64,000 nucleotides of DNA, taken from contig CALMXZ010000011.1 of assembly GCA_937873495.1 (NCBI GenBank), positions 124,001-188,000 of the forward strand, in the 5' to 3' direction. The notes beneath the pieces are model-generated. The model had not been told where the DNA came from, did not search any database, and worked only from the letters and a program-made list of their open reading frames with translations. Shown in pieces: positions 45,135 to 46,489 of the stretch. A program made the position numbers and the translations under genes. Position 1 is the first letter of the stretch. The number at the start of each line of letters is the position of its first letter. This DNA is from an uncultured Trueperaceae bacterium (GTDB lineage Bacteria; Deinococcota; Deinococci; Deinococcales; Trueperaceae).

Positions 45135-45140
45135 TATAGT
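45135..45140 (+). promoter_or_regulatory. Extended -10 promoter of the riboswitch leader
   Basis: TATAGT preceded by TGC (extended -10), 27 bases before the first aptamer. The -35 is weak (candidate TTCACT near 45109). Confidence 0.6.
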
Positions 45141-45167
45141 CGGCCCAAGGAAGTCGAGTACTTCCTG

Positions 45168-45239
45168 CTTGGACGCTGAGAAGCCTGGCTCGTAATTGGG
45201 CGCTTGAGTCAGGTGGAGCGAGTAGCGCAACCGGCCAGG
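45168..45239 (+). ncRNA. c-di-GMP-II riboswitch aptamer, copy 1
   Basis: A ~72-base RNA matching the class II c-di-GMP aptamer. P1 is CTTGG (45168-45172) with CCAGG (45235-45239). P2 is CCTGGCTC (45184-45191) with GAGTCAGG (45206-45213). The loop carries TTGGGCGCTT, whose GCGCT (45200-45204) pairs with AGCGC (45224-45228) in the hallmark pseudoknot, inside the conserved block AGTAGCGCAACCGG. A GAGAA segment precedes P2 like the family's GAUGAA. A hairpin lies just 5' (45145-45172). It binds the second messenger cyclic di-GMP and would control the downstream GH26 gene. Class assignment is from recognition of the consensus. Confidence 0.92.
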
Positions 45240-45336
45240 TGAGTGTCCCCTCATCGAAAAGTGCCGTCAACGTCCGAGCGCGGGCAGCCATGCCCGTGGC
45301 CCGAACCGTTCGGGCGCCCGAGCCGCGAGGCTCGGA

Positions 45337-45408
45337 CTTGGAAGCGATGAAGCCTGTTCTGCATCTGGGCGCTTGGAACAGGTGGAGCTAGTAGCGCAAC
45401 CGGCCAAG
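45337..45408 (+). ncRNA. c-di-GMP-II riboswitch aptamer, copy 2
   Basis: Second aptamer, 97 bases after the first. P1 is CTTGG (45337-45341) with CCAAG (45404-45408). P2 is CCTGTTC (45353-45359) with GAACAGG (45376-45382). Pseudoknot GCGCT (45369-45373) pairs with AGCGC (45393-45397); GATGAAG precedes P2 and AGTAGCGCAACCGG is conserved. Relative to copy 1 the stems change in compensating ways (CTC/GAG to TTC/GAA), which supports real RNA structure. Tandem aptamers usually sharpen the response to ligand. Several hairpins lie between it and the GH26 start, among them GGACGC/GCGTCC at 45472-45487 just before the ribosome site, a possible expression platform. Confidence 0.93.
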
Positions 45409-45471
45409 GGACGTTCTCGGTCTAGTCGCACCTGTTCGCGACCAGCCGGCAGCCGGGCGAGCGCCTCGCGA

Positions 45472-45487
45472 GGACGCATCCGCGTCC
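45472..45487 (+). promoter_or_regulatory. Hairpin before the first GH26 gene (possible expression platform)
   Basis: GGACGC, a four-base ATCC loop, GCGTCC. It ends directly at GGGGA, the only ribosome-like sequence before ATG 45497. Together with the GTCGC/GCGAC hairpin at 45425-45442, it could transmit aptamer folding to translation. Confidence 0.4.
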
Positions 45488-45496
45488 GGGGACCAG

Positions 45497-46489
45497 ATGA
45501 TCCGGCTGAGCGCAGCGCGAGTAGACAACCGAAAGGCCCTCGCACCACGTGGGATGATGGTGCTCGTTCTGCTCCTCGCCACGCTCGTGTTGAGCGCCTG
45601 CGGGAGCGCGCAGGAGGGAGCCGTCTCAGTGACCCGCTCGGCGCCTGCTCTGGAGTCGACCGCCATGTTCGGCGCGTTCACCTTCGGCGGCGTGTGGCGG
45701 GGCATGGACCCCGTCTACGAGCTCGAGCTCGACCTCGGTCGCCGCCTCGACATCGTGCACTGGTTCACGAACTGGGACAACCCCTACTTCCCCGAGCTCG
45801 TCGCCATGGCGTCCCAAGGCGGGCGCAGGCCGATGATCAGCTGGCAGAGCTACGACCGCGACGTCGACGACATCGCGACCGGCAAGTACGACGCCTACAT
45901 CACCGAGTGGGCGCGCGGCGCCGCCGGCGCGCCCGGCCTCCTCTACGTGCGCCTCTTCCCCGAGATGAACGGCGACTGGACGCCGTGGAGCGGCGACCCG
46001 GAAGCCCTCAAGGCCGCCTGGCGCCGCATCGTCGACATCTTCGACTCCGCCGGGGCGACCAACGTCCGCTGGGTGTTCAGCCCCAACGTCACGGACTCGC
46101 CGCGTGTGCCCGAGAACGCCATGGAGCTCTACTACCCGGGCGACGACTACGTCGACGTCCTCGCCCTCGACGGCTACAACTGGGGCGACGTCCTGCCCGC
46201 GGTCGGCTGGCGCTCGTTCGAGTCCATCTTCCGCGCCGGCTACGACCGCGTGACGCGCCTTGGCACCCAACCCGTGTGGATCGCGGAGCTCGCCAGCTCC
46301 GACGTCGGCGGCGACAAGAGCGACTGGGTCCGCGAGATGTTCGCCACCACCGGGTTCGAGCGCATCGAGGCGCTCGTCTGGTTCAACGAGAACAAAGAGG
46401 CCGACTGGCGCATCGACTCCGACGTCGCGACCCTGCACGCCTTCCGTCAGATGCTCTCCGCCGGCACCACGGTCGCGGCGGCCCGTTGA
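45497..46489 (+). CDS. GH26-like lipoprotein 1 under tandem c-di-GMP-II riboswitches
   Basis: 330-residue predicted lipoprotein. The lipobox is LVLSAC with Cys35. The mature part resembles glycoside hydrolase family 26 (beta-mannanase/related endo-glycanase TIM barrel): acid/base Glu156 in LFPEMNGDW and nucleophile Glu264 in VWIAELASS, plus RWVFSPNV and LDGYNWG. GH26 enzymes cut mannans and related beta-glycans. ATG 45497 is used; ATG 45554, closer to the hydrophobic segment, is an alternative. It is ~55% alike to the next gene by eye. Likely anchored outside the cell, processing an extracellular polysaccharide when c-di-GMP levels permit. Confidence 0.85.
   Translation: MIRLSAARVDNRKALAPRGMMVLVLLLATLVLSACGSAQEGAVSVTRSAPALESTAMFGAFTFGGVWRGMDPVYELELDLGRRLDIVHWFTNWDNPYFPELVAMASQGGRRPMISWQSYDRDVDDIATGKYDAYITEWARGAAGAPGLLYVRLFPEMNGDWTPWSGDPEALKAAWRRIVDIFDSAGATNVRWVFSPNVTDSPRVPENAMELYYPGDDYVDVLALDGYNWGDVLPAVGWRSFESIFRAGYDRVTRLGTQPVWIAELASSDVGGDKSDWVREMFATTGFERIEALVWFNENKEADWRIDSDVATLHAFRQMLSAGTTVAAAR

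Follow-up and report, generated by a model that had tools for sequence, protein, structure and literature searches.

The window, a stretch of 64,000 nucleotides from contig CALMXZ010000011.1 of an uncultured Trueperaceae bacterium, carries on its forward strand a long leader with two c-di-GMP-II aptamers in series (45162-45245 and 45332-45414) ahead of a gene for a GH26-like lipoprotein of 330 amino acids (45497-46489). Upstream lie a divergent tgt gene and an extended -10-like promoter (TATAGT with a preceding TG, 45135-45140, its TA...T being kept in most orthologous leaders). The start codon is preceded by a Shine-Dalgarno-like GGGGA (45488-45492), a G-rich site at this place being kept in most orthologues. 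A paralogous GH26-like lipoprotein gene, 55% identical, follows on the same strand (46575-47819, start codon uncertain; PF02156, E 1.3e-11) and is probably on the transcript of the first; such a paralogue also follows the first gene in genomes G019, G020, G021, and G022. After the GH26 pair come a glucose/sorbosone dehydrogenase-like gene (47797-49173, plus strand) and, on the minus strand, a 917-aa open reading frame (49249-52002) that joins family-2 glycosyltransferase and lytic transglycosylase (SLT) domains, an unusual fusion to find near GH26 genes.

The product of the first gene matches PF02156 with 44.5 bits (E 1.7e-11) against a cut-off of 20.2, and NCBIfam offers no name for it. Its closest solved relative by profile is the GH26 lichenase Lic26A of C. 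thermocellum (Endoglucanase H, 2v3g), matched over residues 68-326 with an E value of 5.5e-64. Both catalytic glutamate positions of Lic26A are present, as E156 (within PEMNG) and E264, and are invariant in an alignment of 10 homologues; the protein differs from Lic26A in its lipoprotein signal and in the acid/base motif, which is PEMNG here and HEANG there. Its nearest named relatives are encoded by metagenome-assembled genomes of Trueperaceae/Deinococcota.

In searches with Infernal and Rfam 15, both leader elements match RF01786 over the full model (positions 1-84) and score above its gathering threshold of 53.5 bits, aptamer 1 with 70.9 bits (E 6.5e-14; loop GGGCGCUUG at 45198-45206) and aptamer 2 with 74.6 bits (E 5.5e-15; loop GGGCGCUUG at 45367-45375), and the Rfam search of the stretch returned no other family of relevance. 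The first-pass annotation, which had named this search as a check, had recognized tandem class II aptamers before a GH26-like lipoprotein gene from the sequence alone, an observation that is confirmed by RF01786, PF02156, and the Lic26A profile match. The features on which it relied, namely P1, P2, the GGGCGCUU loop, its AGCGC partner, and the conserved GGAGC.AGUAGCGCAACCGG block, can all be located in both aptamers, and the compensating change that it noted in P2 (CUC/GAG versus UUC/GAA) is correct. Its distance of 97 bases between the two elements applies to trimmed elements, the full-model matches being 86 nt apart. By their sequence, both RNAs are confirmed as genuine class II aptamers in series, and both are predicted to bind c-di-GMP. 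The class had been described as best known from Clostridia but is not only clostridial: RF01786 is found in 34 of the 39 genomes of the family and 77 of the 111 genomes of the order, and its presence in Deinococcus has been published (PMC9495176).

Several further elements of the same strand surround the aptamers. At its predicted 5' end the transcript carries a hairpin (45148-45166) that directly precedes P1 of aptamer 1. This hairpin can be folded in 13 or more of the 14 orthologous loci and covaries, with two-sided changes in six of its seven pairs and 72% of cells paired. At the end of aptamer 1, an alternative structure (45232-45266), predicted in most of the 14 loci, would capture the 3' strand of P1 through the pairings CGGC (45232-45235) with GCCG (45263-45266) and GGUGAG (45238-45243) with CUCAUC (45250-45255), and is mutually exclusive with P1. 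It is followed by box 1 (CGAGCGC, 45275-45281), a complement of the aptamer 1 loop, and by the GCCCGAACCGUUCGGGC hairpin (45299-45315), which is kept in 12 of the 14 loci. In these 12 the hairpin sequence itself, beyond its pairing, is nearly invariant, and the hairpin may be a binding site for something. A CCGAGCC/GGCUCGG hairpin (45318-45335) adjoins aptamer 2 and overlaps the outer part of its P1, and box 2 (CGAGCGCCU, 45458-45466), a complement of the aptamer 2 loop, lies beyond that aptamer, its 3' end (CCUC, 45464-45467) being a potential partner for the GGGG in the ribosome-binding site. Each aptamer is thus followed by a loop-complementary box. There are no intrinsic terminators in the window leader, after aptamer 1 or elsewhere, and a T-run is absent after every leader hairpin.

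The same aptamer pair precedes the orthologous GH26-like gene in 14 Trueperaceae genomes. Across these loci the first aptamers are 80% alike and the second 82%, whereas the two aptamers of one locus are 72% alike. A first aptamer is thus closer to its counterparts in other genomes than to its own neighbor, which makes the pair an old one in which neither copy has been lost. A recent duplication of one aptamer was considered and rejected, the paralogues of a locus being less alike than orthologues. In an alignment of the 14 leaders, 19 of 42 pairs show two-sided changes and 93.8% of cells are paired; neither value was reached in any of 500 shuffles, and slid controls gave 36-45%. The two-sided changes include P1 and P2, while the pseudoknot pairs are invariant in all 14 loci and are therefore silent on covariation. 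In aptamer 1 the paired fraction is 92.9% for P1, 98.2% for P2, and 100% for the pseudoknot, a degree of conservation close to that in aptamer 2. The earlier proposal that both copies are under structural selection is supported by these pairing counts together with the orthologue and paralogue identities. Close aptamer pairs are common among the matches listed, with at least 20 of the family's 39 genomes having one. That the riboswitch travels with GH26 outside the family was considered and rejected, since the retrieved flanks of 63 GH26 loci of other taxa (L105-L169 without L134 and L143) gave no aptamer in a pattern search.

The two boxes were located by sliding the loop sequence over the whole 446-column alignment of the 14 leaders, with no place preselected. 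The two top sites outside the aptamers lie one behind each aptamer, in 13 of the 14 loci apiece; the strongest is box 2 (columns 400-404) and the second is box 1 (column 160), where 13 of the 14 loci score at least 17. The register of box 1 varies among loci, and in the window the box is only 7 nt long. The pairing of box 2 with the loop is present in 91% of cells and is kept via G-U changes; because the loop is invariant, box pairing within the 14 leaders rests on one-sided changes. A second potential partner of box 2 is the ribosome-binding or start region, examples being GCGUCUC/GAGAUGC in G018 and UAAGCG/CGCUUA in G027. The advantage of cognate over non-cognate pairing of box 2 with this region is marginal, at p of about 0.03-0.06 (559/20000 for the non-redundant 10 leaders, 1157/20000 for all 14). 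Constrained folding of the 14 leaders gave a predicted Shine-Dalgarno accessibility of 0.40 with box 2 free and 0.39 with box 2 captured (p=0.43), so that the thermodynamic idea of a freed box 2 hiding the Shine-Dalgarno sequence was dropped.

Complementarity of this kind was first read by eye downstream of aptamers in 45 loci and then tested on 131 aptamers of the order against dinucleotide shuffles. Aptamers with loop GGGCGCUU (GCGCUU group, n=72) and loop GGGCGCCU (GCGCCUG group, n=20) have a downstream complement of their own loop (z=6.9 and 5.6, respectively) and none of their 3' strand (z about 0), whereas the second aptamers of another pair type (loop GGGCAUCA, GGGCACCA, or GGGCGCCA, n=36) have a downstream complement of the 3' strand GUGxxGCAACC (z=12.8) and none of the loop (z=-1.6); the signal is lost when partners are permuted among loci (11/2000 and 1/2000), all of these figures being stronger than independent evidence would give because the sequences are related. 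In this other pair type, the capture strand GGUUGCAUCC is also complementary to the start codon region GGAUGC. With the aptamer strand GGUGCAACC, the capture strand is either GGUUGCACCCC, with a GUG start in GGGGUGC, or GGUUGCAUUCC, with AUG in GGAAUGC, and over 17 loci the capture strand matches the start codon, GCACCCC going with GTG and GCATCC, GCGTTC, or GCATTCC with ATG. Some loci with loop GGGCGCCU come from genomes of 2.1-2.4 Mb that we take, by their size, to be Thermus-like. Behind aptamer 1 of these loci stands an intrinsic terminator (GGCCAGGCGCCCAAGCCTGGCCCTAAGGTTTTT) whose 5' arm is the exact complement of the loop; behind aptamer 2 stands UUGCGCCACCUCC, which is complementary to the aptamer strand GUGGCGCAA and likewise to the Shine-Dalgarno sequence GGAGGUGG. 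In each of these related layouts the ligand-folded aptamer would free a strand that shuts the gene, which points to OFF switching with ligand. A further platform type was seen in G003, G006, G007, and G030 (L073, L060, L071, and L059) and in L082, where a CCCUC next to an anti-Shine-Dalgarno hairpin, CUCCUU/GAAGGAG, is able to capture GAGGG, the 3' strand of P1. At two loci, RF03169 (c-di-GMP-II-GAG) stands head to head with a c-di-GMP-II aptamer or pair (L076, 6413-6500, plus strand; L211, 31-118, minus strand).

The genome of the window encodes nine GGDEF and four EAL proteins, and so has proteins for both c-di-GMP synthesis and breakdown, and it holds seven c-di-GMP-II aptamers: the window pair, a second pair on contig C5, and three singles on C16. 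The second pair (L008, G000:C5:54349-54565, minus strand) is of the other type, with loop GGGCAUCA in its second aptamer and a capture strand, GGTTGCATCC, that is complementary to the aptamer strand and the start codon. It precedes a lipoprotein with a right-handed beta-helix that is related to Pel9A and lyase-like. One single aptamer (L010, G000:C16:21736-21819, minus strand) precedes a GH114 lipoprotein of the endo-alpha-1,4-polygalactosaminidase family (E 1e-85). The other two (L009, 3063-3146 and 12351-12432) stand directly before secreted proteins without a Pfam match, the first of them being followed by a very long open reading frame of about 2,640 aa. Because other aptamers precede the GH114 enzyme and the beta-helix lipoprotein, the regulon likely consists of glycan-cutting enzymes, and under OFF logic these matrix-cutting enzymes would be made as c-di-GMP falls.

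The reading preferred here, to which a probability of roughly 0.6 is given, is that two complete c-di-GMP-II riboswitches act in series to repress the GH26-like gene at high c-di-GMP, each through its own strand-exchange platform. In the ligand-free state, the pseudoknot loop GGGCGCUUG of each aptamer would be held by the box downstream of it (CGAGCGC or CGAGCGCCU), while in aptamer 1 another hairpin would take up the 3' strand of P1. With c-di-GMP bound, the loop would be kept in the aptamer pseudoknot and the box released, and box 2, once free, would block translation by pairing with the ribosome-binding/start region. Full expression would need both units to be ligand-free, giving a sharper response, and the paralogue at 46575-47819 would probably be co-repressed. 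This reading is built on the two aptamers, their conservation with the gene, the covarying stems, and the two boxes, all directly observed, and from these we infer ligand binding, the direction of switching, its translational level, the action of the first unit, and the sharper response. The interpretation offered in the first-pass annotation, of steep control of glycan cutting by c-di-GMP, specified neither the sign of the response nor a platform, and is as a whole partly supported.

For the order (Trueperaceae, Thermaceae, and relatives) it seems on balance probable that such aptamers act as OFF switches by pseudoknot-strand capture, and that in this genome they release a glycan-cutting regulon as c-di-GMP falls. 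A single downstream strand would complement the aptamer loop or 3' strand as well as the start codon, Shine-Dalgarno sequence, or terminator, which would tie the evolution of the aptamer to that of the capture strand and of the start codon, whether AUG or GUG.

Three other accounts of the window leader were considered. In the first, which is unlikely, Rho or pausing would exert control during transcription, with termination in the long GC-rich leader whenever the strong hairpins between and after the aptamers form. The strong, conserved inter-aptamer hairpins without a U-tract suit it, as does the intrinsic terminator after aptamer 1 in Thermus-like relatives, but the T-run is missing from the window leader, and box 2 adjoins the start codon in the manner of translational platforms.

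The second, which appears rather unlikely, concerns the sign, where the preferred reading of repression in series is least certain for the window's own pair. The aptamers could be ON switches, c-di-GMP exposing the ribosome-binding site and inducing the glycanase, with the boxes incidental or serving some other fold. All four C. difficile class II riboswitches activate (PMC6200980, PMC11477304), and predicted Shine-Dalgarno accessibility in the window is independent of the state of the box. Against this, boxes stand at fixed places behind both aptamers in 13 of the 14 loci, and in sister pairs the same logic leads to start-codon or terminator pairing once the aptamer is folded; comparison with relatives suggests that the aptamers switch genes off at high c-di-GMP, the opposite of class II in C. 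difficile. Because the support for box 2 pairing with the ribosome-binding region is marginal and Shine-Dalgarno accessibility is unchanged, OFF switching is held only as likely for the window pair.

The third account, which seems improbable, would have the proximal aptamer 2 alone control the gene, aptamer 1 being a relic or, with its own 5' hairpin, a transcript-stability element. The absence of a terminator after aptamer 1 is compatible with this, and many first aptamers have UGAGAA rather than GAUGAA in J1/2; the stems and pseudoknot of aptamer 1 are nevertheless kept about as well as those of aptamer 2, with two-sided changes, and box 1 is conserved, as is the P1-capture hairpin. That the aptamers bind another cyclic dinucleotide is scarcely credible, since, even with variant c-di-GMP classes in Rfam and RF03169 present in relatives, RF01786 gives the best score, the conserved core is kept, and the genome is rich in GGDEF/EAL proteins.

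Tandem c-di-GMP-II riboswitches have already been published, with 59 doublets and nine triplets (PMC9481103), a survey reports c-di-GMP riboswitches to be enriched in Deinococcota in single and tandem form (PMC12452182), and a pair of complete riboswitches in series is expected, on textbook grounds, to respond in a steep, switch-like manner (PMC9481103, PMC12452182). The switching anatomy, by contrast, was not found published: no description of pseudoknot-strand capture in c-di-GMP-II riboswitches turned up in the open-access papers searched. If the preferred reading is true, the sign would be reversed relative to the class II switches of C. difficile, the platform would exchange the ligand-binding pseudoknot strands themselves, and falling c-di-GMP would bring about the release of matrix-cutting enzymes in Deinococcota via RNA alone. 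Because Thermus-like relatives carry the same logic, it is testable in tractable bacteria.

The leader shares with the Cdi2 switches of C. difficile the aptamer fold, the conserved core, and downstream genes for surface or extracellular proteins; those are ON switches, mostly transcriptional, one being coupled to a group I intron (PMC6200980, PMC11477304), whereas the anatomy here suggests OFF switching via pseudoknot-strand capture, with control near the start codon. Like the published doublets (PMC9481103), it sets a pair of complete, same-class aptamers ahead of a single gene, with an expected pseudo-cooperative response, but those doublets mostly precede a COG4932 surface anchor gene in Paraclostridium and this one a GH26-like glycanase gene in Deinococcota. 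With the contiguous Deinococcota riboswitches (PMC12452182) it has in common the phylum and the single and tandem arrangements, that work being a statistical survey whose available text gives no platform, polarity, or GH26 target. Finally, as in ZTP (pfl) and P1-type strand-exchange riboswitches (PMC10907184), an aptamer strand would pair with either the aptamer or the expression platform in mutually exclusive fashion; the strand exchanged there is mostly P1, whereas here it would be the pseudoknot hairpin loop or the 3' strand, in part like ZTP.
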